Below, piece by piece: positions 22,645-37,054 of a stretch of DNA of 64,000 bases; position 1 is the stretch's first letter, and each line of letters opens with the position of its first letter. Location: NCBI RefSeq assembly GCF_001544455.2, contig NZ_FCOC02000009.1, forward strand, positions 124,001 through 188,000, read 5' to 3'. This DNA is from Caballeronia sordidicola. Its GTDB lineage: Bacteria > Pseudomonadota > Gammaproteobacteria > Burkholderiales > Burkholderiaceae. Made by a program: the position numbers and the translations under genes. The notes beneath the pieces are model-generated. The model was not told the DNA's origin and made no database searches. It was given only the letters and a program-made list of their open reading frames with translations.

Positions 22645-23400
22645 TCACTTTTCATCGTCTAGAAGCGTGCGGATCATCCGCCCGGGATTCGCCATGAACG
22701 CGCGCATGATCTGGACGTGTTCGGTGTCGTCGTAATTCACGCGCGCAACGCCGTCGGCAGTGAACTGGTAAATCCACGCGTCCGGATAGGCCATGAGAAC
22801 GGGCGAATGCGTGGCAATGACAAATTGCGAGTCGTCGCCCGCCAGGTCGTGGATGCGCGCCAGCGCGGCAAGCTGGCGTTGCGGCGAAAGCGCCGACTCG
22901 GGTTCGTCCAGCAGATACAGTCCCTTGCCGCCAAAGCGGTTCATCAACAGCGCGAGAAACGCCTCGCCGTGAGATCGCTCGTGCAGCGACTGCCCGCCGT
23001 AAGAGTTAATGACCGGAGGGCCAAGGCCGCCGGCGGCATCAAGATTTTCGATTTCCGTCGCGACGTTGAAGAAACTTTCGGCGCGCAGGAAAAATCCATC
23101 CCTCGGCTTCTTGAAGCCCTTGGCGACGCGAAGATACGCGTCGAGCGTGGAATGGGACGACCGGGTATCGAAGCGAAAATTCCGCGTGCCGCCTTCCGCG
23201 TTGAAACCCATGGAAACGGCAATCGCTTCCAGCAGCGTCGACTTCCCCGAGCCGTTTTCACCGACGAAAAACGTCACCTGCGGATGCAGGTCGAGCGTGT
23301 CCAGCGACCGAACCGCGGGAAGCGAAAACGGATAAGCATCGAACGAGTCGACCTTGTCCCGCTGCAATGTGATGCGGCTAATGTACTGGCTGGAAATCAT
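22645..23400 (-). CDS. AAA/SMC-type ATPase (predicted ABC-like ATP-binding protein)
   Basis: Predicted 251-residue soluble P-loop ATPase. GENGSGKST at 47-55 is the Walker A motif, SYGGQSLHERSHGEAFLALL holds an ABC-type signature-like segment, and GLYLLDEPESALSP is Walker B; a C-terminal switch histidine (ATHSP) is present. This is the AAA_21 / OLD-like single-domain arrangement without a membrane partner or nuclease domain. Its role is not known; related proteins occur in stress response and in defence modules, but no partner gene is adjacent, so defence is not supported here. Confidence 0.82.
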   Translation of the reverse strand: MISSQYISRITLQRDKVDSFDAYPFSLPAVRSLDTLDLHPQVTFFVGENGSGKSTLLEAIAVSMGFNAEGGTRNFRFDTRSSHSTLDAYLRVAKGFKKPRDGFFLRAESFFNVATEIENLDAAGGLGPPVINSYGGQSLHERSHGEAFLALLMNRFGGKGLYLLDEPESALSPQRQLAALARIHDLAGDDSQFVIATHSPVLMAYPDAWIYQFTADGVARVNYDDTEHVQIMRAFMANPGRMIRTLLDDEK

Positions 23401-23466: not shown

Positions 23467-23820
23467 TCACGCCTCCACGATCATTTCAAAGCCGCCGTAG
23501 ATCATGCGTTTGCCATCGAACGGCATGGGATTCTTGTCGGGCTGCACGCGCGGATCGGCCATCACCGCTTTCATGCCGTCGTCGCGCGCCTGACGCGACG
23601 GCCAGAGGATCCACGAGAACACGACCGTCTCGTCGTCCTTGCGCTTGACGGCCATTGGAAACGAAGTCAGCGTGCCTTCCGGCACATCGTCTCCCCAGCA
23701 CTCGACAACTTTCAGCGCGCCGTGCTCCTTGAAAACGCCCGCCGCCATCTGCGCGTGCTGCCGGAACGCCTCGCGGTTGGCCGTGGGCACGGCGGCAACA
23801 AATCCATCGACATAAGTCAT
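23467..23820 (-). CDS. DUF1428 family protein
   Basis: Predicted 117-residue protein that matches the DUF1428 family (E. coli YbaA-like): YVDGFVAAVPTANREAFRQHA, VVECWGDDVPEGTLTSFPMAVK, VFSWILWPSRQARDDG and MPFDGKRMIYGGFE. The fold is dimeric ferredoxin-like; the function is unknown. It stands alone on the minus strand between an ATPase and a PanE-type reductase gene, with its own spacing (over 60 nt on each side). Confidence 0.87.
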   Translation of the reverse strand: MTYVDGFVAAVPTANREAFRQHAQMAAGVFKEHGALKVVECWGDDVPEGTLTSFPMAVKRKDDETVVFSWILWPSRQARDDGMKAVMADPRVQPDKNPMPFDGKRMIYGGFEMIVEA

Positions 23821-23925: not shown

Positions 23926-24933
23926 TTAGCTGACCGGCGCGGGTTCGGGCGCTGGCGCCGGCACGTGCTGCGCAATCTGCTCGCGAAGCTTGATCAGCGC
24001 CAGCACCGTATCGATAGTCGGCGTTGCCTGCCCGACCAGCCGGCCCATTTCCTGCACCACGGTCAGCAACGGGTCGATTTCCATCGGACGATTGGCTTCC
24101 AGATCCTGCAGCATGGAAGTCTTGTGCGCGCCGACGGCACCCGCGCCGTCAATGCGCTTTTCGACATCGACGCGAAAATGCACGCCAAAACGTTCCGCGA
24201 TGGACTTGGCTTCCAGCATCATGGTCCGCGATACATCGCGCGTTGCAGGATCGCTCGTGATCACGTCGAGCGTTGCGTGGGTCAGCGCGCTGATCGGATT
24301 GAAGCAGAGATTGCCCCACAGCTTGAGCCAGATCTCGTCGCGGATATTGTCGCGGATGGGCGCGTCGAGTCCGGCCGCCACCATGATTTCGCTCAGTTTC
24401 TGAATCCGCTCGGTGCGCTCGCCGCTCGGCTCACCGATAGGAAATTTTTTGCCGTACACATGGCGGATCACACCGGGTTCCGTGATCTCGGCTGCGGGGT
24501 ACACCACGCAGCCAATCGCGCGCTCGGCTCCGAGTTGCTTCCACTGCGTGCCGCCCGGGTCGATGCTGTCGAGCGTGGTATCCGCAAACTCGCCGCCGTG
24601 CTTGTGGAAATACCAGTAGGGAATGCCGTTGACGGCGGTGACGATGGCGGTATCGGGACCCAGCAGCGGTTGCATTGCGCCGACCACGCCCGGCACCGAA
24701 TGCGCCTTCAACGCAATGATCACGTAGTCCTGAACACCGAGTTCACGTGGGTCGGACGAACATCGCACCTTGACGGTCCGCTCGGTTCCGTCGATCTGCA
24801 GCCGCACGCCCTTCGACTGCATGGCCGCCAGATGCGGGCCACGCGCGACGAAACTGACATCCGCGCCGGCTAAAGCGAGTTGCGCGCCCAAGTACGCGCC
24901 GATCGCGCCGGCGCCATATACACAGATTTTCAT
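23926..24933 (-). CDS. 2-dehydropantoate 2-reductase family (PanE-type); oxalyl-CoA reductase candidate
   Basis: Predicted 335-residue NADPH-dependent reductase. The Rossmann motif GAGAIGAYLG is at 7-16, and IWLKLWGNLCFNPISALT supplies the conserved lysine and asparagine of ketopantoate reductases. The family normally makes pantoate, but in Methylobacterium extorquens AM1 a PanE paralogue (PanE2) reduces oxalyl-CoA to glyoxylate. This gene lies on the same strand as oxalyl-CoA decarboxylase, formyl-CoA transferases and the transhydrogenase that supplies NADPH, so the oxalyl-CoA role is a reasonable alternative to pantoate synthesis. Sequence alone does not decide; a Pro/Ala-rich tail (PAPAPEPAPVS) is unusual. 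Confidence 0.85.
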   Translation of the reverse strand: MKICVYGAGAIGAYLGAQLALAGADVSFVARGPHLAAMQSKGVRLQIDGTERTVKVRCSSDPRELGVQDYVIIALKAHSVPGVVGAMQPLLGPDTAIVTAVNGIPYWYFHKHGGEFADTTLDSIDPGGTQWKQLGAERAIGCVVYPAAEITEPGVIRHVYGKKFPIGEPSGERTERIQKLSEIMVAAGLDAPIRDNIRDEIWLKLWGNLCFNPISALTHATLDVITSDPATRDVSRTMMLEAKSIAERFGVHFRVDVEKRIDGAGAVGAHKTSMLQDLEANRPMEIDPLLTVVQEMGRLVGQATPTIDTVLALIKLREQIAQHVPAPAPEPAPVS

Positions 24934-25279
24934 CGGTCTCTTCCTGTTTTAAATAACGAATTCTGTCGGGCCGGACGAAAGCCTCAGTCCGGCTTCAGGC
25001 GATGCGAATATCTCGGCGCGTGGTTGAAAGCCGCTGTTTCGTTCATGCCGTGCGGCAGCGACGGTCTCCACGTCGCGCGCCGGCATCCTTATGGGGTGCG
25101 TTGACTGCTCAGGCTGAAACCATGATGGCAACCTTCATCCATTAACGAAAGTGAAAGTTTCTTATGCCTTGGATTAGTTAAAGCTTATATATTTCGGATG
25201 CCTTATAAAATTCGGACGTGCATAGCCGGCGCGCGATTTTCAGGCGCGCGTACACGTGCAGCGTTTAATTACATCGTAC
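24934..25279. other. Intergenic region between panE-type and pyruvate kinase genes
   Basis: Upstream space of the PanE-type gene and downstream space of pyruvate kinase. It contains an AT-rich stretch at about 25140-25220, the likeliest promoter for the reductase, and GGCGCGCG repeats around 25228-25252 that could form a weak hairpin after pyruvate kinase. No gene was found. Confidence 0.5.
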
Positions 25280-26692
25280 CTAAACGCGGGCAATCCGCAG
25301 CAGGTTTGTCGTGCCGGATTCGCCGAACGGCATGCCGGCTGCAATGGCGACCTGATCGCCCGGGCTCGCGAAGCCTTCCCGCGCAGCGGTACCGCACGCG
25401 GCGCTCACCATTTCGTCGACGGAACCAATATCCGGGCTTACCGTGGAGTGCACGCCCCACACCAGCGCGAGACGGCGTGCGGTCGCAAGCTTCGGCGTAA
25501 TGCTCAGGATAGGCGCTGCCGGACGCTGGCGCGCGGCGCGCAAGCTCGTGTGTCCCGACGTGGTGTAGGTCACCGCGACCACCGCATTGATCGTTTGCGC
25601 AACATCGCGCAACGCGGCGCAAATCGCATCGCCCGGCGTGTTCAACGGCAGTTCATGCTGCGCGTCGATCAGGCTGCGATACAACGGATCGTGCTCCACT
25701 TCCTTGATGATGCGGTCCATCATCGCGACCGCCTGCACCGGGAAAGCACCGCTGGCCGATTCCGCCGAAAGCATGACGGCATCAGCGCCGTCGTAGATTG
25801 CCGTAGCCACGTCGGACGCCTCCGCGCGGGTCGGCACGGGCGCGGCGATCATGGACTCGAGCATTTGCGTGGCGATGATCACCGGCTTGCCGTGGCTGCG
25901 GCATGACCGAAGGATGCGCTTTTGGACTCCCGGCACGCGCTCGGGCGGAAGTTCCACGCCCAGGTCGCCACGCGCGACCATCACAGAATCGGACGCCTGA
26001 ACGATTTCATCCAGACGATCCAGCGCCGCCGGTTTTTCCAGCTTGACCATCAGGCCGGCGCGATCGCCTATCAACTCGCGGGCATCGACCAGATCTTCCG
26101 GACGCTGCACGAACGAGAGCGCGATCCAGTCCGCGCCGAGCGACAACGCGAACTCCAGGTCGACGCGATCCTTTTGCGTCAGCACGGGAATCGGCAGGAT
26201 GGTGTCCGGCACGTTCACGCCCTTTCTGTCCGACAACGCGCCACCGTGCTTCACGCGGGTACGGATGCGCTCGCCGTTGTTATCGAGTACTTCGAGGCGC
26301 AGCTTGCCGTCGTCGAGCAGCAGCGACTGGCCCGCGGCCACGACCTCGAACAACTCGGGATGCGGCAGGTACACACGATTCACGTCGCCGGGTGCGGGGT
26401 TGGTATCGAGTGAAAATTCCGCGCCTTCGGCCAGCATCACCTTGCCCGCGGCAAACGGGCCGACCCGCAACTTGGGACCCTGCATGTCGGCGAGGATGGA
26501 AATGGGCCGGCCGGAAACGCGCTCGACTTCGCGCACGAGGTCGTAGCGGCGCTTGTGATCCGCGTGAGAACCGTGGCTGAAGTTCAGGCGGAACACGTCC
26601 GCGCCCGCGTTGAAGAGTTGCGTGATCGTATCGATATCGGAAGTCGCGGGACCGAGCGTGGCGACAATCCTGGCTTTGCGTGAGCGGATCAT
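25280..26692 (-). CDS. pyk: Pyruvate kinase
   Basis: Predicted 470-residue glycolytic enzyme making pyruvate and ATP from phosphoenolpyruvate and ADP. RKARIVATLGPATSD and FRLNFSHGSHADHK at the N-terminus, DLGVELPPERVPGVQKRI and the MLESMIAAPVPTRAEASDVATAIYDGADAVMLSAESA signature region are all present. It follows pntB by 18 nt and so belongs to the FAH-pntA-pntB-pyk operon. In many proteobacteria a second pyruvate kinase (TtuE type) is grouped with glyoxylate or tartronate-semialdehyde enzymes; this copy next to oxalate genes fits that pattern. Confidence 0.94.
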   Translation of the reverse strand: MIRSRKARIVATLGPATSDIDTITQLFNAGADVFRLNFSHGSHADHKRRYDLVREVERVSGRPISILADMQGPKLRVGPFAAGKVMLAEGAEFSLDTNPAPGDVNRVYLPHPELFEVVAAGQSLLLDDGKLRLEVLDNNGERIRTRVKHGGALSDRKGVNVPDTILPIPVLTQKDRVDLEFALSLGADWIALSFVQRPEDLVDARELIGDRAGLMVKLEKPAALDRLDEIVQASDSVMVARGDLGVELPPERVPGVQKRILRSCRSHGKPVIIATQMLESMIAAPVPTRAEASDVATAIYDGADAVMLSAESASGAFPVQAVAMMDRIIKEVEHDPLYRSLIDAQHELPLNTPGDAICAALRDVAQTINAVVAVTYTTSGHTSLRAARQRPAAPILSITPKLATARRLALVWGVHSTVSPDIGSVDEMVSAACGTAAREGFASPGDQVAIAAGMPFGESGTTNLLRIARV

Positions 26693-26710
26693 GGGATTCC
26701 AGTCTTGTGA

Positions 26711-28105
26711 TCAGGCGGCCGACAACTGGCGCAGCAACGCGTCGACGCTCGTCTTGGCGTCGCCGAACAGCATGCGCGTGTTGTCCTTGTAGAAAAGCGG
26801 ATTGTCCACGCCCGCATAGCCGGTCGCCATGCCGCGCTTGGACACCACCACCGTGCGCGCCTTCCACACTTCGAGCACCGGCATGCCTGCAATCGGACTG
26901 CCCGGATCTTCCAGCGCACCCGGATTCACAATGTCGTTCGCGCCGATCACGAGCACGACATCCGTGGTGTGGAAGTCCTCGTTGATCTCGTCCATTTCGA
27001 GCACGATGTCATAGGGCACCTTCGCTTCCGCGAGCAGCACGTTCATATGGCCGGGCAAGCGGCCCGCGACCGGATGAATGCCGAAGCGGACGCGCACGCC
27101 GAGTGCCTCGAGCTTGCGCGTAATGTCGCTGATGGTCGTCTGCGCCTGCGCCACGGCCATGCCGTAACCCGGCACGATAATGACCTCGGAGGCATCGCGC
27201 AGGATGGTGCAGACTTCATCGATGCTGGTCGCCACCACTTCGCCGCCCACGTCCGCCGTGCTCGTTCCGCTCGCCGCGCCGAAGCCGCCAAGGATCACCG
27301 ACAAGAAGCTGCGGTTCATCGCGCGGCACATGATGTAGCTCAGGATCGCGCCGCTAGAGCCGACCAGCGCGCCGGTCGTGATCAGCAGGTCGTTGCTGAG
27401 CATGAAGCCCGTTGCGGCGGCCGCCCATCCGGAATAGCTGTTGAGCATGGAGACGACCACGGGCATGTCCGCGCCGCCGATCGCCATCACGAGATGCACG
27501 CCGAGCGCCGCGGCGAGCACGATCATGATGAGCAACGCGGTGATGCCGTCGGCGATCACGTTTGCCGTGAGGAACCGGTATCCCAACGCCACGCACGCCG
27601 CGAGCACCGCGAGGTTCAGAAGGTGCCGCGCGGGCAAGACGAGCGGCTTGCCGCTGATCGTGCCTTGCAGTTTCAGGAACGCGACAATGGATCCCGTGAA
27701 GGTGATCGTGCCAATGAACACGCCGAGATAGATCTCGCACAGGTGGATGGTCAGTTCGGCGCCGGCAATATCGCCAAGCGGCATCAGGTAGTTGGTGAAG
27801 CCGATCAGCACCGCCGCCAGTCCCACGAAGCTGTGCAGCACGGCGACAAGCTGCGGCATTTGCGTCATCTCGACACGCCGTGCGAGCACGGCGCCGATCG
27901 CCGCGCCAATCACGGCCGCCGCCAGCACGACCGCGAGCCCCGCTCCTTGCGCAATGAGGAGCGTCGCGACGACGGCGATCAGCATGCCCGCGACGCCATA
28001 CAGGTTGCCCCGGCGCGCGGTGCTCGGATGACTCAGTCCGCGCAGGCTCAGGATGAAGAGCACGGCCGCGCCCAGATACGCAATGTTGCCAATTCCGTTC
28101 AGCAT
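26711..28105 (-). CDS. pntB: NAD(P) transhydrogenase subunit beta
   Basis: Predicted 464-residue integral membrane subunit of the proton-translocating transhydrogenase, which uses the proton gradient to reduce NADP with NADH. About nine N-terminal helices ([14 protein letters not shown] onwards) are followed by the cytosolic NADP domain with [31 protein letters not shown] and the [11 protein letters not shown] and [14 protein letters not shown] segments. It lies 11 nt after the fused alpha subunit. The reductant is probably used by the NADPH-dependent reductase two genes further down. Confidence 0.94.
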
Positions 28106-28116
28106 GTTTTTTCTCC

Positions 28117-29664
28117 TTAATTGCGCTGAAACATCTTCAACATGCGCTGGGTCACGAGGAACCCGCCCGCAATGTTGATCGTGGCAACCAGCAACGCGAT
28201 ACCGCCAAGCACCGTCACCAGCGTGTCGGACGTGCCGAGTTGCAACAGCGCGCCGATCACGATGATCCCGCTGATCGCATTGGTCACGCTCATCAGCGGC
28301 GTGTGCAACGCGGGCGTCACGTTCCAGACCACCTGGTAACCCACGAACACCGCGAGCACGAAGACGGTCAGATGCGCGACGAACGCAGGCGGCGCGACCG
28401 CGCCGAGCGCGAGCAGCGCCAATGCGGCGACGGCCAGAATCACAACCGAGACGAAACCATTGCGCGGCTCTTCCTTGACTTCCGCCGCTACTGGCTTCGC
28501 GGGAGCGGGTTTGTGCGCCGCGATGGCAACCGTTTTCGGCGGGGGCGGCGGCCAGCTCACGGCGCCTTCATGCACGACGGTCGCGCCACGCATCACATCG
28601 TCGTCCATGTTGATCTTCGCGACGCCATCTTTCTGCGGCGTCAGATCGGTCAGCAAGTGACGGATGTTCGTGCCGTAAAGCTGGCTCGACTGCGTCGCCA
28701 TGCGACTCGCGAGATCGGTGTAACCGACTATCGATACACCGTGGACCTGCACCACTTCGCCCGGCTGGGTAAGTTCGCAATTGCCGCCCTGCTCGGCCGC
28801 CATGTCCACGATCACGCTGCCCGCGCGCATCATGCCGACCATCTCGGCGGTGATCAGCTTCGGCGCGGGCTTGCCCGGAATCAGCGCGGTCGTGACGATG
28901 ATGTCGACTTCCTTCGCCTGCGCCGCAAAGAGCGCCATTTCCGCCGCGATGAACTCCGCGCTCATCTGTTTCGCGTAGCCACCGCCGCCGCTACCTTCTT
29001 CCTCCATGTCGACCGTGAGGAACACCGCGCCCATGCTTTCGACTTGCTGCTCGACTTCGGCGCGCGTATCGAAAGCACGCACGATGGCGCCCAGACCACG
29101 TGCCGCGCCAATCGCCGCGAGACCTGCAACGCCTGCGCCGATCACCAGCACTTTCGCCGGCGGCATCTTGCCGGCCGCGGTGATCTGTCCGGTGAACACG
29201 CGCCCGAAATGCTGCGCCGCTTCAATGACCGCGCGATAACCCGCCATGTTCGCCATCGAGCTGAGTGCGTCCAGCTTTTGCGCGCGCGAGATGCGGGGAA
29301 CGCTGTCCATCGCCATGACGTTGGCGCCAGCCGCGGCAAGCTGTGCAAGAAGCGCCGCGTTTTGCGCGGGCCAGATGAAGCTGATCAGCGTTGCGCCTCG
29401 CTTGAGCAACGCGGCTTCATGCGGCTCCGGCGCGCGCACCTTGATCACAATGTCGGCGTCGGACCATAACGCGTTCGTGTCGCTCACAATGTGTGCGCCG
29501 GCTGTGCGGTAGGCGTCGTCATCGAATGAGGCGGCGAGTCCCGCCTGCGATTCCACATTCACGGAGAAGCCAAGCTTCAGCAACTGGCCGACGGTCTCGG
29601 GCGTCGCTGCAACGCGGCGCTCGCCCGCGCGGATCTCGCGCGGCACTGCAATGGTCATCGCCAT
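28117..29664 (-). CDS. pntA: NAD(P) transhydrogenase subunit alpha, fused form
   Basis: Predicted 515-residue protein: N-terminal NAD-binding domain ([56 protein letters not shown]) joined by a proline/alanine linker ([19 protein letters not shown]) to a C-terminal membrane part with three to four helices. Thus the alpha subunit is a single chain as in E. coli, whereas many related bacteria have it split into two genes. The ATG at 29664 lies 1 nt after the stop of the FAH-family gene, a tight coupling. Works with PntB. Confidence 0.94.
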
Positions 29665-29665
29665 G

Positions 29666-30445
29666 TCAGACTCCGCCCGCTAAAACGTTCGACAACACGC
29701 CAATCCCGCCGATGGACACTTCAACCGTCGCGCCATCCTTGATCGATCCCACGCCAACGGACGTACCGCACGCGATCACGTCGCCAGGTTCGAGCGTCAT
29801 GTCCTGCGAGATCAGGCTCACTTGCTGCGCGGGCGAAAAGATCATGTCCGAGAGCGGATAGTTCTGGCGCTCGACACCATCGAGCCGCGTGATGACATGT
29901 GCGTTACGCCAGTCGAAATCGCGCTGGATCGCGGGTCCAATGCAACTGAATGTATCGAAGCCCTTCGAGCGGCACCATTGCGCGAAGTTGGGATCTTCGT
30001 TGAGGAGTTCGGCGGCGGTGACGTCGTTGATGCAGCTATAGCCGAAGATGTAGTCGTCGGCTTCTTCTGCCGATACATTGCTGCAGCGCTTGCCAATCAC
30101 AATGGCAAGTTCGCCTTCATACGCAATCTTGCCGTTGTACGCTTTCGGACGCTGGATAGGTTCGCCGTGGCCGATCACGGAGGTTGGCGGCTTGATGAGA
30201 AAGAGCGGATGAGAGGGCGCGGCCTTTCCCAGCTTTTCGGAAAGGGCGTGAAAGTTGTTCCAGAGCGCGACGACTTTTGTCGGTACGCACGGGCTCAGCA
30301 GCGTGACGTCTTCCCGGCTCAGCAGCTTCGCGCCCGGCGTTGCCGTCCCGAACATCTCGCCGTCGTACTGCGTGATGCGATGGTTTTCCAGAACGCCGAA
30401 ACCCGTCTGGCCGTGCGCGTTCCGAAACCGTATCCACGTTTTCAT
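29666..30445 (-). CDS. Fumarylacetoacetate hydrolase (FAH) family protein
   Basis: Predicted 259-residue enzyme. The C-terminal FAH fold shows the metal ligands in [15 protein letters not shown] (Glu-x-Glu) and [13 protein letters not shown] (Asp), plus [13 protein letters not shown]. Members hydrolyse or decarboxylate acylpyruvates, and some hydrolyse or isomerise other beta-diketo acids. It leads the operon with pntA, pntB and pyk, an unusual partner set, and lies 84 nt downstream of a formyl-CoA transferase gene. Its link to oxalate is only contextual; oxaloacetate decarboxylase activity, known in some FAH-domain proteins, is one possibility. Confidence 0.85.
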
Positions 30446-30529
30446 CGAATGTCTCCTGCAAGTTTTTATGGGGTGCGCTGACGCCGCCGCATGGGCCGCG
30501 TCGCGTCATCTTTTTGTGCGAGCCCGCGC

Positions 30530-31777
30530 TCAAATGGCGCCGACAGCCCGCAAATGCGCAATCTGTTCCGGCTGGTAACCCAGTTCGGCCATCACTTCAT
30601 CCGTGTGTTCGCCGAGCAATGGCGAACGCGTGACTTCAGTGGGGCTATCGGACAATTTGATAGGATTGCCAACAGTCAGATATTTTCCGCGCACCGGATG
30701 ATCGACTTCCACAATGGTTCCGGTTTCGCGCAGCGACTGTTCTTCGGCGATTTCTTTCATCGAAAGGATCGGGCCGCATGGAATGTCGTACTTGTTCAGG
30801 ATGTCCATGGCCTGGAACTTGGTCTTCGTCATGGTCCAGCGTTCGATCTCGGCGAAGATGTCCTTCAGGTGCGGCAAGCGCGCGGCGGCCGTGGCGTAGT
30901 CCGGATCGGTCGCCCATTCTTCCTTGCCGATCACGTTGCAGATCTTTGCCCACACGGGCGCTTGCGTAATGAAATAGATATACGCGTTCGGATCGGTTTC
31001 CCAGCCCTTGCATTTCAGGATCCAACCGGGCTGGCCGCCGCCCGATGCATTGCCCGCACGCGGCACGGCTTCGCCGAACTCTCCATTGGGATACTGCGGG
31101 TATTCCTTCATCACGCCGGTGCGTTCGAGGCGCTGCTGGTCGCGCAACTTCACGCGGCACAGATTGAGCACGCTGTCCTGCATGGCGGACAACACGTACT
31201 GGCCGCGGCCGGTCGAATGACGCTGATACAGCGCCGTGACAATGCCAAGCGCCAGATGCAGCCCGGTTCCCGAGTCGCCGATCTGCGCGCCGGTCACAAC
31301 GGGAGGACCATCGTCGAAACCTGTGGTCGACGCGGCTCCGCCCACGCATTGCGCGACGTTCTCGTAAACCTTGCAATCTTCATAGGGTCCGGGACCAAAG
31401 CCTTTCACCGACGCCACGATCATGCGCGGATTCAGTTCCTGCACGCGCTCCCAGGTGAAGCCCATCCGGTCCAGCGCACCCGGCGCGAAATTCTCGACCA
31501 TGACGTCGCACACCTGGATCAGCTCTTCCAGAACCTGCTTGCCTTCGGGATTTTTTGTGTCGATGGTGACCGAACGCTTGTTGTGGTTCAGCATCGTGAA
31601 ATAAAGGCTGTCCGCCTCCGGGATGTCGCGAAGCTGGTCACGCGTGACGTCGCCCACGCCCGCCCGCTCCACCTTGATCACGTCCGCGCCGAACCACGCC
31701 AGCAACTGCGTGCAGGTCGGCCCCGACTGCACGTGCGTGAAGTCGAGGATCTTCACACCCTCCAATGCCTTGCCCAT
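30530..31777 (-). CDS. frc: Formyl-CoA:oxalate CoA-transferase, paralogue 1
   Basis: Predicted 415-residue class III CoA-transferase that activates oxalate with CoA from formyl-CoA. The N-terminal [40 protein letters not shown] and the Asp168 in IGDSGTG (equivalent to the catalytic Asp169 of Oxalobacter Frc) mark it as Frc rather than a generic CaiB. The glycine loop reads SGGGQPGW from 245, with Ser in place of the first of four glycines seen in paralogue 2. It has its own long leader (31778-32091), with a copy of the TGATATA motif. Cytosolic; partner of oxalyl-CoA decarboxylase. Confidence 0.92.
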
Positions 31778-32091
31778 TTTCGTCTCCCTAAATTGATCCT
31801 TGTCTGCCTGGCATTGCGCTCGGTTCGGTTGCCGGACTTTGCCGGCTTATCTACCGTGGGCTGCTCATGGGTCGGCGACGGCTTGCGCGTCGGGCAAACT
31901 GCTTTGGTTCGCCCCTTCTGATATATCGTATTTTGAACATCGTATTTCTGCAACCGCTTTTATTGCTTATTTAGTCTGACGTCGCGCATTTGTTTTATGC
32001 GTCCGCTGAGTCGGTGAATGTGCGCGAGTTATCAGACATTTTATTAGGCGGCTAATTCAGGATTACCAATCATTAAACGCCCAGGCGTTAG
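31778..32091. other. Leader and promoter region of the frc paralogue 1
   Basis: Holds the TGATATA-type motif (31919-31932) and a 9-bp direct repeat ATCGTATTT at 31925-31933 and 31939-31947 (14-bp period). It is more AT-rich near 31920-32060 than the surrounding genes. No gene is evident. Confidence 0.55.
31919..31932 (+). promoter_or_regulatory. TGATATA motif, site C (upstream of frc paralogue 1)
   Basis: TGATATATCGTATT, 142 nt before the frc start codon, differs at two of fourteen positions from the site at the regulator gene and at three from the oxc site. It overlaps the first ATCGTATTT repeat. Candidate binding site of the FCD regulator at 36031-36747. Confidence 0.5.
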
Positions 32092-32331
32092 TTAGCGCGC
32101 GGGCGCGGTGCTCAGCATTGCCATTGCCACGCGGCGCGCACCGGCTATTGCCGCGGCTTCGCTTTCGAACACGGCTTCGTCCACCACATGCTGATACGGC
32201 AGCAAGCCGGATTGGGCCTGCTGGTTTTCATCGACGGTGCGAATGGCGAGATAGGCCGCCCAGCCGCCGTTGTGGATCAACTGCATCGCGGACAGTTCGA
32301 GTTTGTATTGCCCAAGGACCTCGACGTGCAT
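32092..32331 (-). CDS. Small hypothetical protein in the oxalate block
   Basis: A 79-residue protein opening with MHVEVLGQYKLELSAMQLIHN, followed by GGWAAYLAIRTVDENQQAQSG and a helical end (EAAAIAGARRVAMAMLS). AGGAGA lies 8 nt before the ATG, which decides the start against a longer frame. It looks like a small alpha/beta cytosolic protein; no family was recognised. It lies between two frc genes on the same strand, with gaps of 314 and 260 nt, so it may have its own promoter. A role in oxalate use is guessed only from position. Confidence 0.65.
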   Translation of the reverse strand: MHVEVLGQYKLELSAMQLIHNGGWAAYLAIRTVDENQQAQSGLLPYQHVVDEAVFESEAAAIAGARRVAMAMLSTAPAR

Positions 32332-32591
32332 TTGAAATCTCCTGTTAAATCCTGACGATGGGAAGCCGCGACGCGCAGGCGTGCGCGAGCGGCACGTTGG
32401 CGCGTGATTCATCCGTAAGGGTATCGACGGCTGCGGCGGTTGACCGACTTGTAATCGATCGCGATTCCGCCAAATCTGGAAGGGCAGTGATTCAGTCAAC
32501 GCGGCGTCCGCTTTGTGACGCCGCATTGTGCGGGGTCTCGAAGAATGAGACCCCGGTGCTTCGACTACTTTTTGCTACATGAACCAGACGC

Positions 32592-33842
32592 TCACACTGC
32601 CTGGATTTCCTTCAGGTTGAAGATTTCCTGCTGGCTGTAACCGAGGCTCGCCAAAACTTCTTCCGTGTGCTCGCCGAGCAGCGGCGAAGCGGTCACTTCC
32701 GGCTTCAGGTCCGAAAACTTGATCGGGCTGCCGACCGTGAGATACGAGCCGCGAACGCTGTGCGGCACTTCCACGATCGTGCCGCTTGCGCGCAGCGACG
32801 GATCGTTCGCCAGTTCCTTCATGGTCAGCACTGGCGCACACGGAATATCGAACTTGCGCAGGATATCGACAGCTTCGAATTTCGTCTTGTCGGCAAGCCA
32901 CTCTTCAATGGTCGCGAAGATATCGAAGATGTGCGGTTGACGTGCCTCAGCCGTCTTGTACGCCGGGTCGTCGATCCATTCCGGCTTGCCAAGCGCCTTG
33001 CAGATTGGCGCCCAGGCATGACCCTGGATCGTGAAGTAGATGTACGCGTTCGGGTCCGTTTCCCAGCCCTTGCATTTCAGGATCCAGCCCGGCTGACCGC
33101 CGCCGCCGGCGTTGCCGCCGCGCGGAACCACGTCGCTGAATTCGCCGTGCGGATACTGCGGATACTCTTCCAGATAACCCACGCGGTCCAGACGCTGCTG
33201 GTCGCGCAGCTTCACGCGGCACAGGTTCAACACGCTGTCCTGCATCGATACCGCGACCTTCTGGCCCTTGCCGGTTTTATCGCGGCCAATCAGGGCCGTC
33301 AGAATGCCGATGGCCAGATGCATGCCCGTGTTGCTGTCGCCGAGCGCGGCGGCGCTGATGGTCGGAGGACCGTCCCAGAAGCCGGTGGTCGATGCCGCGC
33401 CGCCCGCACACTGAGCGACGTTTTCATAGACTTTCAGGTCGTCGTAATGATGGCCGTCGCTGAAGCCTTTCACCGACGCCACGATCATCTTCGGGTTCAA
33501 CTCATTCAACCGTTCCCACGAAAAACCCATCCGGTCGAGCGCGCCCGGACCAAAGTTCTCCACCAGCACATCGGACTCGCGGATCAGCTTTTCCAGCACT
33601 TCCTTGCCTTCGGGCTTTTTCGTGTCGAGCGTGAGGGACTTCTTGTTGCTGTTCAACATGGTGAAGTACAGCGCGTCGGCGTCGGGAATGTCGCGCAACT
33701 GGTTACGTGTCACATCGCCCGAACCTGGACGTTCGACCTTGATCACGTCTGCACCGAACCACGCGAGTAACTGCGTACAGGCCGGGCCGGCCTGGACGTG
33801 CGTGAAGTCGATGATCTTGATGCCGTCGAGTGGTTTGCTCAT
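32592..33842 (-). CDS. frc: Formyl-CoA:oxalate CoA-transferase, paralogue 2
   Basis: Predicted 416-residue Frc. Same length and architecture as paralogue 1, with [39 protein letters not shown], catalytic Asp169 in LGDSNTG (same number as in Oxalobacter formigenes) and a complete four-glycine loop GGGGQPGW from 246. It converts formyl-CoA plus oxalate to oxalyl-CoA plus formate. The gene starts 23 nt after oxc and should share its transcript, so this is probably the main oxalate-catabolic copy. Confidence 0.94.
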
Positions 33843-33865
33843 GTCATGTCTCCTTGGGCGTTGCC

Positions 33866-35623
33866 TTACTTTTTCATCGCCGCGCTTTGCGGATTGAGGT
33901 TCGTCAGACGGCCGCTCTCCGTGCCGGCAGCTTCGTCGATAACAGCGTTGATCAGCGTCGGCTTGCCTGATGCAATACCTTCCAGCAGCGCCTTGGTCAG
34001 TTGCGCCGGCGTCTCGGCGTTAAAGCCCACGCCGCCGAACGCCTCGATCATCTTGTCGTAGCGCGCGCCCTTCACGAACACGGTCGGCGCAACGTCCTTG
34101 CCGCCGGTCGGGTTCACGTCCGTGCCGCGATACACGCCGTTGTTATTGAAGACGATGGTGACAACGGGCAGGTCGTATCGGCAGATGGTTTCGAGTTCCA
34201 TGCCGCTGAAGCCAAACGCGCTGTCGCCTTCGATGGCGACCACCGGCTTGCCGCTCGTCACAGCCGCGCCAATCGCGAAGCCCATGCCGATGCCCATGAT
34301 TCCCCACGTGCCGGAATCGAAGCGCTTGCGCGGTTCGTACATGTCGATGATGCTGCGCGCATAGTCCAGCGTGTTCGCGCCTTCGTTCACCACGTTGATG
34401 TCCGGACGCGTCTTCAGCACGTCGCGGATTGCGCGCAAGGCGCTGTGGAAGTTCATCGGCGACGGATTTTGCTCGAGCGTCGCGGCCATCTTCGCGAGGT
34501 TCTTGCTCTTCCTTTCCGTGATCGCGCCGGTCCATTCCACGCTCGGCTTCGTGAAGCCGCCCGACTGGATTTCCGTCAGCAGCGCCGACACGCACGAACC
34601 AATGTCGCCGATCACCGGCGCGGCGATCGCAACGTTGCTGTCGATTTCCGTCGGCGAAATGTCGATCTGGACGAACTTCTTCGGTGCCGCGCCCCACGTC
34701 TTGCCCTTGCCGTGCGACAGCAGCCAGTTCAGCCGCGCGCCGATCAGCACCACGACGTCCGCTTCCTGCAGCACGAACGAGCGGGCAGCCGACGCCGATT
34801 GTTCGTGTGTATCGGGCAAGAGGCCCTTCGCCATGGACATCGGCAGATACGGAATGCCGCTCTTCTCCACGAATGCGCGGATTTCAGCGTCGGCTTGCGC
34901 GTAGGCCGCGCCCTTGCCGAGCAAGATCAGCGGACGCTTCGCGCCCTTCAATACGTCGATTGCGCGCTTGACCGAATCCGGAGCGGGAAGCTGGCTCGGC
35001 GCGGCATCGACAACCTTGATCAGCGATTGCTGCGCCTTGACGGCATCGATGGTCTGCGCGAGCAGCTTGGCCGGCAGGTCCAGATAAACACCGCCCGGAC
35101 GCCCGGACACAGCCGCACGGATCGCACGCGCGATACCGACGCCAATATCCTCCGCATGCAATACGCGATACGCGGCCTTCGCATACGGCTTCGCCGCGTT
35201 CAACTGGTCCATTTCCTCATAGTCGCCCTGCTGCAAGTCGACGATCTCACGCTCGCTCGAACCGCTGATCAGGATCATCGGGAAGCAGTTGGTGGTCGCG
35301 TTGGCGAGCGCGGTCAGGCCATTCAGGAAGCCCGGCGCGGACACAGTCAGGCAGATGCCCGGCTTCTTGGTCATGTAACCGGCGATGGCGGCTGCGTTGC
35401 CCGCATGCTGCTCATGGCGAAAGCCAATAAAGCGCATGCCTTCGGCTTGCGCGAGACGCGCGAGGTCCGTGATGGGAATGCCCACCAGACCGAAAATGGT
35501 GTGAATGTCGTTCAGCTTCAGTGCATCGATGACCAGATGAAATCCATCCGTCGTTTCCGCCTTCTTTTCTTCCAGCGTGTCGTTTGCAGTGGCGCTCTGC
35601 GGATTGCTTACTACTTCGGCCAT
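33866..35623 (-). CDS. oxc: Oxalyl-CoA decarboxylase
   Basis: Predicted 585-residue thiamine-diphosphate enzyme that turns oxalyl-CoA into formyl-CoA and CO2. [50 protein letters not shown] (with the ThDP-activating Glu), [21 protein letters not shown] and the ThDP-Mg motif beginning [10 protein letters not shown] and ending FNNNGVYRG are typical of Oxc. Length matches the family. The ATG at 35623 follows GGAGGAG; an upstream GTG is not needed. Heads the oxc-frc operon, with a TGATATA motif 38 nt upstream of the start. Decarboxylation consumes a proton in the cytosol and so supports energy gain from oxalate. Confidence 0.95.
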
Positions 35624-36030
35624 GACGTCTCCTCCTTTGGCGGGGTGTTTGTGTAGTTCGTGATATACAATATTCCACACACAGTATTAGTCAAGCAGCT
35701 TTTTGTTTCGATACGTCATTGCTGCACTGCGGCGAATAGGTTTGGGACGATTTGATACGGTTCCTGGCGCTTTTATGTTTGCGTTGCACCAACTTGCGGT
35801 GACTTCGGAATTTTTGCGGCCAATGAATTTTGGTTGATTTCCGGCCTCGTAAAAACAAGCGGCAGGTTGAAAGCCTTGGCCGTTTTGAACGGGGTTGAGT
35901 GGTGAGAAAGTCAGGCGCAAACGCTTGCGTAAAACCATACGGATTCCTAACAGTAACGGGCTGTGAGCGAACATAGTCAGCCGGATTTACACGGCCTCAA
36001 GCCAAACGCAGCCAAACAAAACCACGACCC
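35624..36030. other. Promoter region of the oxc operon
   Basis: About 400 bp between oxc and the end of the GntR gene, both on the minus strand. It contains the TGATATA motif at 35661-35674 and a GC-poor stretch from 35655 to 35710 that should hold the promoter. No convincing gene is seen. Confidence 0.55.
35661..35674 (+). promoter_or_regulatory. TGATATA motif, site B (upstream of oxc)
   Basis: TGATATACAATATT, 38 nt before the oxc start codon, matches 13 of 14 positions of the reverse complement of the site upstream of the FCD regulator. Close to where a promoter or repressor site should be. Confidence 0.55.
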
Positions 36031-36747
36031 TCAATCGAGAAAATCGCAATTCGTCTCCACGAATTGCGCGAGTTCCACCGAATGCTGCCGGACGAGACTT
36101 TCGACGCGCTCAGTATCCCGCTGCTCCAGCGCCTCAATGATATGCATGTGATCCACGATCGATCGCGACGCGCGGTCGCTCTGCGCAATCGTCATGCGGC
36201 GGATTGCGCGCACATGAACGAAGAGGTTTTTCATTGTGTCGAGAATCACCTGCGATTGCGATAACTCCAGAATCGCCTGATGAAACGCGAGGTTTGCTTC
36301 CGAATACTCTTCTATATGGTCGGCCGGCGTGGCATCGCGGAAATCGTCGAACATGCGGCGCAATCCCGCTATGTCCTCCTCCGACGCGTGCAGCGTCGCG
36401 AGCCGCGCGGCCATGCTTTCGAGCGCAGCCCACATATAGATCATGTCGACGATTTCGCGCTTCGTCTTGCGCTGAATATAGATGCCGCGTCGCGGCACCG
36501 TGCGCAGGAAACCTTCCTGTTCAAGCAGCGTCATCGCCTCGCGAACCGGCGTCCGGCTCACGCCGAGCGCTTCGGTCAGTTCCTTTTCGTCGAGCCGGAT
36601 CTCTTCGCGCGACCGGTAAATATCCGCATCGGCAATAGCCTGCTTCAGCCGCGCATACGCCTGGTCGCGCAACGAAGCCGATGCACTGATCGGCACAAGT
36701 GCAAGCGTCAGGGGCGTCGGGCGGATTCCAACATACGTATCAGCCAT
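36031..36747 (-). CDS. GntR-family regulator, FCD subfamily (likely oxalate regulator)
   Basis: Predicted 238-residue protein. The HTH (LRDQAYARLKQAIADADIY, DEKELTEALGVSRTPVREAMTLLEQEGFL) is followed by an FCD effector domain with the usual histidines (ANLAFHQAILELSQS, VDHMHIIEALEQRD). It lies upstream of oxc on the same strand. A 7-6-7 inverted repeat sits 49-68 nt before its ATG, and similar motifs precede oxc and one frc, so it is the best candidate for control of oxalate genes. The ligand may be oxalate or a CoA product, by inference only. Confidence 0.9.
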   Translation of the reverse strand: MADTYVGIRPTPLTLALVPISASASLRDQAYARLKQAIADADIYRSREEIRLDEKELTEALGVSRTPVREAMTLLEQEGFLRTVPRRGIYIQRKTKREIVDMIYMWAALESMAARLATLHASEEDIAGLRRMFDDFRDATPADHIEEYSEANLAFHQAILELSQSQVILDTMKNLFVHVRAIRRMTIAQSDRASRSIVDHMHIIEALEQRDTERVESLVRQHSVELAQFVETNCDFLD

Positions 36748-37054
36748 TGAGGTGGGTGTCTCCCTGTTGGTATGAAGCGCAGCATCATTATTTAAATATA
36801 CCCAATATGGTATATCAAGAACAAACGCAGCATAAACCCGTTTTACGCGTTCATGTGATATCGGGTTTTCCCTAGCCGTTGCGTTGCTCGGGCGGGCGTC
36901 GTTTTCGCGGACGCTTATAATCTGGCGCGGTTAACGGCGTTATAGCTTCATCTGACTTCGCGCCGGACCAACGGATCCAATCGCTCAATCCATCTATCAG
37001 GCGCGTTGCCCTCTGCGCCGGCATACGGACATCCACCCTATTCCCAGAGAGACC
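36748..37054. other. Divergent intergenic region, GntR and DUF1993 genes
   Basis: Contains the inverted repeat at 36796-36815 for the regulator and a plus-strand TATAAT at 36916-36921 that may serve the DUF1993 gene, although no good -35 hexamer stands at the usual distance. No gene is seen. Confidence 0.5.
36796..36815. promoter_or_regulatory. Inverted repeat in the GntR promoter (site A)
   Basis: ATATACC and GGTATAT form perfect 7-bp arms around a 6-nt spacer. The right half with flanking bases reads AATATGGTATATCA (36804-36817), the reverse complement of the TGATATA-type motif found upstream of oxc and frc. It lies about 50-70 nt before the regulator's ATG, suggesting autoregulation. Confidence 0.6.

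Follow-up and report, generated by a model that had tools for sequence, protein, structure and literature searches.

A probable oxalate operon of Caballeronia sordidicola that pairs a predicted oxalyl-CoA reductase with an extra transhydrogenase and a glycerate-type pyruvate kinase

In this work, we analyzed a stretch of 64,000 nucleotides (contig C9, positions 124001-188000; the window) from the 6.87-Mb genome of Caballeronia sordidicola. On its minus strand, between positions 23926 and 36747, lie, in order, gntR, oxc, frc1, a 144-aa open reading frame (ORF), frc2, a fumarylacetoacetate hydrolase (FAH)-family gene, pntA, pntB, pyk and panE. Judging from sequence comparison, this block is probably an oxalate operon that joins an oxidative to a reductive arm and carries an extra transhydrogenase (PntAB), a pyruvate kinase (Pyk) of the glycerate type and a shared promoter box. 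The initial annotation had placed oxc, two frc genes, the FAH gene, pntA, pntB, pyk and a PanE-family gene on the minus strand and had proposed a dual module for oxidation and assimilation of oxalate. All eight genes are indeed intact ORFs there, gntR and the 144-aa ORF also belong to the block although they were missing from that gene list, and the dual role gains support from the clade of the reductase, its neighbours and the extra gene copies described below.

Families were assigned by curated profile cut-offs, with the oxc product scanned minus its start codon. The oxidative arm is represented by oxc (33866..35623), encoding oxalyl-coenzyme A (CoA) decarboxylase (TIGR03254, 999.8 bits, cut-off 739.4; also NF006721), and by two genes for formyl-CoA:oxalate CoA-transferase, frc1 (32592..33842; TIGR03253, 733.4, cut-off 504.2) and frc2 (30530..31777; TIGR03253, 737.2, cut-off 504.2). 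The FAH-family gene (29666..30445; PF01557, 201.3, cut-off 23.9) is followed by pntA (28117..29664; TIGR00561, 776.6, cut-off 444.4), whose alpha subunit carries the 4TM domain PF12769, and by pntB for the beta subunit (26711..28105; NF006974, 699.5, cut-off 689), so that both products exceed the curated cut-offs for proton-pumping transhydrogenase subunits. Next are pyk (25280..26692; NF004886, 694.1, cut-off 623) and the panE-type gene (23926..24933; NF005089, 530.2, cut-off 223); the gaps FAH-pntA, pntA-pntB and pntB-pyk measure 1, 11, and 18 bases. Family profile searches returned no match for the 144-aa ORF (32092..32526), a place held by a PAS protein in six relatives (L046-L051). At the head of the block, gntR (36031..36747) encodes a GntR/FCD-family regulator that is 98% conserved in the related loci L044 and L045 and has a 77% copy in a second locus of the genome (L042). 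The complete gene order is conserved in L044 and L045, and the arrangement is therefore not a matter of chance. A neighbouring 22-kb stretch has its best match in Caballeronia plasmids (83.7% over 34% of the query). When 41 genomes were searched (C. sordidicola, 24 congeneric, and 16 of the order), window-type PanE (at least 84% identity) was found in nine genomes of the genus, C. sordidicola included. All nine loci have oxc-frc and pntA-pntB beside panE, and eight have the FAH gene (the exception being G017). Both pyk and the second frc occur only in C. sordidicola, G013 and G019; in the other six loci panE starts 9 to 117 bases past pntB.

The reductive arm depends on the identity of the PanE-type protein, which we predict with high confidence to be an NADPH-dependent oxalyl-CoA reductase. 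The C. sordidicola genome has six strong ApbA-domain matches (E 1.9e-22 or better, 15 matches in all), and six matches are likewise obtained at E 0.001 with the window protein as query. In a quick-method tree of 92 of the 171 collected sequences, with E. coli PanE and three of the genome's own paralogues set as outgroup, a 75-row clade (support 92, not starred) unites the window protein with those of Cupriavidus and Methylobacterium. One half of this clade (99, starred) contains four named Methylobacterium rows, Oxalobacteraceae and Comamonadaceae, and the other (81) contains the window protein, Cupriavidus metallidurans, Azospirillaceae and Rhodobacteraceae SC52; a fourth own paralogue, on contig C16, falls outside it in a starred 11-row clade. 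Over aligned columns, the window protein is 77% identical to its C. metallidurans homologue, 73% to a further own copy on contig C3, 48% to those of M. goesingense and M. oxalidis, 37% to the C16 paralogue and 28% to E. coli PanE. M. extorquens PanE2 and C. necator ApbA2 are represented in the tree by congeneric species as stand-ins, and the 50-51% identity between the C. metallidurans protein and those of M. goesingense and M. oxalidis fits the 51% published for C. necator ApbA2 versus M. extorquens PanE2 (PMC7486775, in excerpt). Each half of the clade thus appears, through these stand-ins, to stand next to an assayed or genetically tested enzyme. The initial annotation had named clustering with canonical pantoate enzymes and a sole PanE in the genome as what would count against it; the tree gave a separate clade and the genome six PanE-type genes. 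A canonical ketopantoate reductase was rejected as a candidate on tree position, identity to E. coli PanE and copy number.

In an alignment of 149 clade and 18 outside sequences, E. coli residues K176, N98, S244 and E256 are conserved as K204, N102, S273 and E285 of the window protein. R31 and E. coli K72 (K76 in the window protein) are conserved too. Going by the roles in E. coli PanE, we take the former four to be catalytic sites and R31 and K76 to bind the NADPH phosphate. The outside sequences retain the same catalytic and NADPH residues. What marks the clade is P146-A147 and H270, present at or near 100% inside vs. 0 to 6% outside; E. coli PanE has N241 where the clade has H270.

The genomic surroundings of the clade point in the same direction. 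We counted as an oxalate-gene neighbour OxlT, Frc, Oxc, oxalate-CoA ligase or an Oxc-like thiamine diphosphate (ThDP) enzyme within 10 kb. Such genes accompany clade panE at 38 of the 44 loci in the phylum sample, at 58 of the 80 named ones and at 7 of the 8 on plasmids, as compared to none of 18 loci of PanE outside the clade (13 of which the tree puts there and 5 only their identity, 40-44%; Fisher p 7e-11 vs. the phylum sample). A gene for an AMP-ligase is found no further than 400 bp from PanE at 23 of the 44 phylum-sample, 23 of the 80 named and 2 of the 8 plasmid loci, and the one ligase tested against solved structures (L140) has oxalate-CoA ligases as its best matches (E 1.7e-123). The ligase-panE pair would make a two-gene unit for oxalate activation and reduction, and hence gives independent support for the role of PanE.

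The genes for PntAB may have joined panE more than once. The genome's other pntB (C2:11798) is 54% identical to the window copy, and a pntB at a panE or oxc locus is an additional copy in all eight searched genomes that have one (G000, G013, G019, G011, G017, G001, G364 and G433), whereas the genomes lacking pntB at such a locus have a single pntB in 23 of 23 cases (Fisher p 1e-7, kinship ignored; the plasmid cases stand outside the count). In a 47-row PntB tree, the copies from panE loci fall at four positions. Those of the window and G364 are in a Burkholderiaceae clade (96, starred), and those of Skermanella and Azospirillum group together (97, starred). The Phyllobacterium copy stands apart, as does that of Noviherbaspirillum, which is nearly identical to the genome's other one. 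Among plasmids, PntB lies near panE at three of the eight loci first read and, of four more, in Azospirillum B510, A. lipoferum and Skermanella rosea, not in Phyllobacterium T1293. The genes panE, FAH, sucCD and frc, a ThDP gene and oxlT are common to two Phyllobacterium plasmids, only one of which has pntAB, placed between panE and FAH. Noviherbaspirillum pedocola (L245, L346, L347) carries two near-identical pntB genes, one beside panE, as from a recent duplication. Separately, G011 has a broken pntB-like frame with several stops (G011:C7:256928-258310) and three intact copies elsewhere.

There are two pyk genes in the C. sordidicola genome, the window copy and C12:93934, which are 42% identical. 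The window Pyk falls in a starred nine-row clade with those of G013, G019, G031, G292, G364, L219, Herminiimonas and Noviherbaspirillum C5 (a contig-cut Herminiimonas fragment, L246, was omitted from the tree and the full copy, L310, kept). The Collimonas-like genomes G031, G292 and G364 all have this Pyk in gcl-hyi-glxR-pyk clusters (L335-L337), the copy of L219, a metagenome-assembled genome (MAG), follows panE, and that of Herminiimonas lies about 10 kb from panE (L246). The window pyk does not adjoin gcl; the genome's own gcl-hyi-glxR is on contig C13 (L343) and has no pyk. A Pyk of another branch directly follows panE in Variovorax (three loci) and in a Rhizobacter MAG, which, as read from the tree, is a separate recruitment. 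Both the pntAB and the pyk link with panE recur in other lineages, which is in line with the earlier placing of a transhydrogenase beside the oxalate PanE, and the grouping with gcl-operon enzymes agrees with the proposed route from glyoxylate via phosphoenolpyruvate (PEP) to pyruvate. We have moderate confidence that PntAB and Pyk have dedicated roles in oxalate use; both would be lineage-specific additions that the pathway does not need generally, since most panE loci are without them.

A promoter box, spotted by eye in the output of a palindrome search, connects the operon to a second locus. The predicted oxc promoter, TTGACT / TATTGT (35661..35694, minus strand), overlaps the box ATATTGTATATCA, and both L044 and L045 conserve it. 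A shorter form, GTATATCA, lies 62 bases upstream of gntR (36810..36817, plus strand), also in L044 and L045; it matches twice in the window vs. 0.33 expected, and 7 of 100 shuffles reach as many. The 13-base pattern ATRTTGTATATCA has four sites in the 6.87-Mb genome and none in the reversed control, and all four are at oxalate promoters: before oxc in the window and before frc1, panE' and frc2 at the C3 locus. Related sites with AGTATATCAC precede oxc in all six other window-type loci. The sigma-70 scan gave four sites vs. 4.2 expected, among which the oxc site stands out by its conservation in relatives and its overlap with the box, and the palindrome search of upstream regions found nothing common beyond near-identical relatives. 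These data suggest a single oxalate regulon across the two loci, with the GntR protein probably regulating the operon and binding the box.

Taken together, gene content, clade, neighbours, extra copies and the box are features of the DNA itself, and the reaction of PanE2/ApbA2, its use of NADP and the oxalate growth phenotype are carried over by analogy from published relatives. On that footing, the following model can be proposed. Frc1 and Frc2 would put CoA on oxalate, and Oxc would decarboxylate part of the oxalyl-CoA to formyl-CoA, from which CoA would pass to new oxalate. Oxidation of oxalate yields NADH through formate, and formate oxidation is presumably the source of NADH here too. The PanE-type enzyme would reduce the remaining oxalyl-CoA with NADPH to glyoxylate. 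Because each glyoxylate costs one NADPH (two per phosphoglycerate) while oxalate oxidation yields NADH, there would be a need for the extra PntAB, which would convert NADH to NADPH driven by the proton gradient. Glyoxylate could then enter Gcl-Hyi-GlxR, encoded on C13, and with a presumed glycerate kinase step give phosphoglycerate and then PEP, from which the glycerate-type Pyk of the operon would form pyruvate and so close the glycerate route. GntR would switch the window operon and the C3 locus (OxlT, frc, panE' and frc2) via the shared box. OxlT and Gcl are both encoded in the C. sordidicola genome outside the window operon. The activity and direction of PanE in this organism, the parts given to PntAB and Pyk, and the link between regulator and box are what we infer.

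Several observations weigh against this model. The PanE and other trees are quick ones with very long outgroup branches. Only 8 of 19 clade loci of the order sample have oxalate genes nearby (46 of 300 genomes matched; 20 regions were read and 19 counted, with L376 omitted as a second locus of a genome already counted), and oxalate neighbours are lacking at 22 of the 80 named loci, many of them on short contigs, and at 6 of the 44 phylum-sample loci. PntB was found near panE at just 2 of 44 phylum, 1 of 80 named and 0 of 19 order loci, and Pyk at 1 of 44, 5 of 80 and 0 of 19. Given a base rate of 0.42% per locus, the three PntB cases in 124 loci correspond to p 0.016 with kinship ignored, and the case for PntAB therefore rests more on the separate tree places and extra copies than on frequency. 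In G001, oxc-frc-pntAB (L201) occurs without panE, which is elsewhere (L058), so the pump may serve growth on oxalate at large rather than PanE. For Noviherbaspirillum C5, the stretch read (L338) has neither gcl nor panE near the Pyk gene. Between pyk and panE lie 346 bases with no box in front of panE, and the pattern ATRTTGTATATCA was derived from sites that it later matched, so that the finding is that the genome has no others.

Other explanations were considered in light of these points. That PanE is an oxalyl-CoA reductase and pntAB and pyk are mere chance passengers of the operon seems unlikely. Both are absent from most clade loci, and G013, a genus mate of the window, is among the three PntB cases behind the p value, but PntB from panE loci falls in four places of its tree, pntAB lies between panE and FAH in only one of two similar Phyllobacterium plasmids, the extra-copy status holds in all eight genomes, and the genes are packed with gaps of 1 to 18 bases. 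Moreover, the window Pyk is of the gcl-operon type, and a Pyk of the other branch follows panE in Variovorax and Rhizobacter. It is very improbable that the PanE-type protein serves vitamin B5 synthesis as a conventional ketopantoate reductase and that its oxalate setting is meaningless. The protein's NCBIfam subfamily is named 2-dehydropantoate 2-reductase, its nearest solved chain, 3ghy, is labelled ketopantoate reductase, and the catalytic residues of E. coli PanE are conserved. Yet the protein is distant from E. coli PanE, and stands in a separate clade that travels with oxalate genes and oxalate-CoA ligase, and the genome holds five further PanE-type genes.

We also hold it quite unlikely that the module runs in reverse, with PanE oxidising to oxalyl-CoA, for use by Oxc, the glyoxylate supplied by glycolate, by purines or by side reactions of Rubisco, and PntAB handling surplus NADPH. 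The PanE reaction is described as reversible (PMC9485241, in excerpt), oxalyl-CoA decarboxylation aids glycolate use in C. necator once the glycerate pathway is lost (PMC7486775, in excerpt), and genes for urate and allantoin lie near panE in Azospirillum. In contrast, oxalate intake and assimilation are indicated by the two frc genes, by the glycerate-type Pyk and by the linked locus, which encodes an oxalate/formate antiporter. PntAB, besides, normally runs toward NADPH. An operon for oxidation and assimilation of oxalate remains the reading that we prefer.

If the transhydrogenase beside the reductase is truly dedicated, the NADPH cost of obtaining carbon from a substrate as oxidised as oxalate becomes testable by single deletions. 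Clade, marker residues and neighbours together offer a rule for separating likely oxalyl-CoA reductases from the many genes annotated as 2-dehydropantoate 2-reductase, and likewise a parts list for synthetic PanE2 routes. A tentative extension, for which our confidence falls just short of even, is that NADPH limits oxalate assimilation, that a transhydrogenase was brought into the reductase locus at least four separate times, that in the window lineage this, once a glycerate-type pyruvate kinase was added, produced a nearly self-contained oxalate-to-pyruvate operon, and that FAH is an unrecognised step of oxalate metabolism. Of the reductase's partners that lack an explanation, the FAH gene is the most frequent: 64 of 132 loci have it no more than 400 bp from PanE.

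Additional genes recur around panE. An oxalate-CoA-ligase-like gene stands directly beside panE, with no oxc or frc in the stretch read, at L140, L152-L158, L160-L163, L165-L171, L202 and L203; ligase-panE neighbours span Rhodobacteraceae SC52, Methylobacterium, many further genomes and several betaproteobacterial MAGs. A ThDP enzyme lies beside frc, with no oxc in the stretch read, at L134, L136, L054, L059, L139, L351, L159, L243, L261, L279 and L230. Those of L059 and L139 score below all listed NCBIfam cut-offs, with acetolactate synthase and 2-hydroxyacyl-CoA lyase nearest, and those of L054 and L059 are 27-28% identical to Oxc; possibly, this is another formyl-CoA or oxalyl-CoA enzyme. 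Many panE loci (L139, L351, L052-L054, L058, L134, L136, L224, L247 and L249) have a SucCD-like CoA ligase pair, which might join CoA to oxalate or to a different dicarboxylate in an ADP-forming reaction. In Azospirillaceae (L137, L138, L349, L350 and L352), CBS-domain genes lie between panE and pntAB, a histone-deacetylase-like gene is found between the two in Skermanella or nearby in Azospirillum, and pyk, PPDK and gcl are also near panE in Azospirillum. The second panE type (72-77%), to which the own copy at C3:597651 belongs, has OxlT, GntR and frc2 as neighbours there, and no pntB was found within 10 kb at any of the eight loci of this type that were read. Directly 3' of panE in the window are two genes (22645-23400 and 23467-23820), 91-92% conserved in L044 and L045, and the larger product has by eye the look of an AAA-type ATPase. 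Finally, L043 (G000:C1:21500-41000) has a second oxc (67%) together with an frc (76%) and an frc-like gene (31%), with neither promoter box nor panE at that locus.

Among known systems, the oxalyl-CoA reduction route of Methylobacterium extorquens AM1, reportedly described by Schneider et al. in 2012, would share its PanE-type reductase (PanE2) with the window operon. The M. extorquens PanE has been characterised as a putative oxalyl-CoA reductase (PMC8411744, in excerpt), and an assay of the purified enzyme on CoA, NADP+ and glyoxylate gave a Km of 0.36 mM (PMC9485241, in excerpt). In three of four named Methylobacterium loci the homologue is flanked by OxlT, FAH and an oxalate-CoA-ligase-like gene (M. 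oxalidis has FAH only); unlike the window, these stand-in species have proteins of 48% identity, and the stretches read lack oxc, frc, pntAB and pyk. C. necator ApbA2 is closer, belonging to the same subclade through its C. metallidurans homologue. The C. necator gene is a near neighbour of frc-oxc and is required for full growth on oxalate: when it is deleted, the doubling time rises from 6.5 to 10 h, and loss of frc-oxc abolishes growth (PMC7486775, in excerpt). C. metallidurans (L134), however, has no pntAB or pyk within 12 kb; pntAB is present in its tree neighbour G364 (L143). A complete oxalotrophy operon, its genes unlisted, has been reported for C. oxalaticus (PMC9476978), and in B. 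terrae BS001 an antiporter-oxc-two-frc cluster and glyoxylate carboligase were reportedly raised beside a fungus (PMC5209427, in excerpt). The cluster of Burkholderia phytofirmans PsJN likewise has oxc and frc, with oxc required for growth on oxalate, but is described as antiporter-oxc-frc in a report whose main text has neither the word reductase nor transhydrogenase (PMC3886118). The gcl-hyi-glxR-pyk operons resemble the window in their Pyk, three of which (L335, L336 and L337) share its starred clade, and differ in that the window pyk is in an oxalate operon and the own gcl-hyi-glxR (L343) has no adjoining pyk. Among the papers listed by our search of the mostly open-access literature, none is, judged by title and abstract opening, about pntAB or pyk at an oxalate locus. 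The chemistry of the operon is known from relatives, and its packaging looks new.

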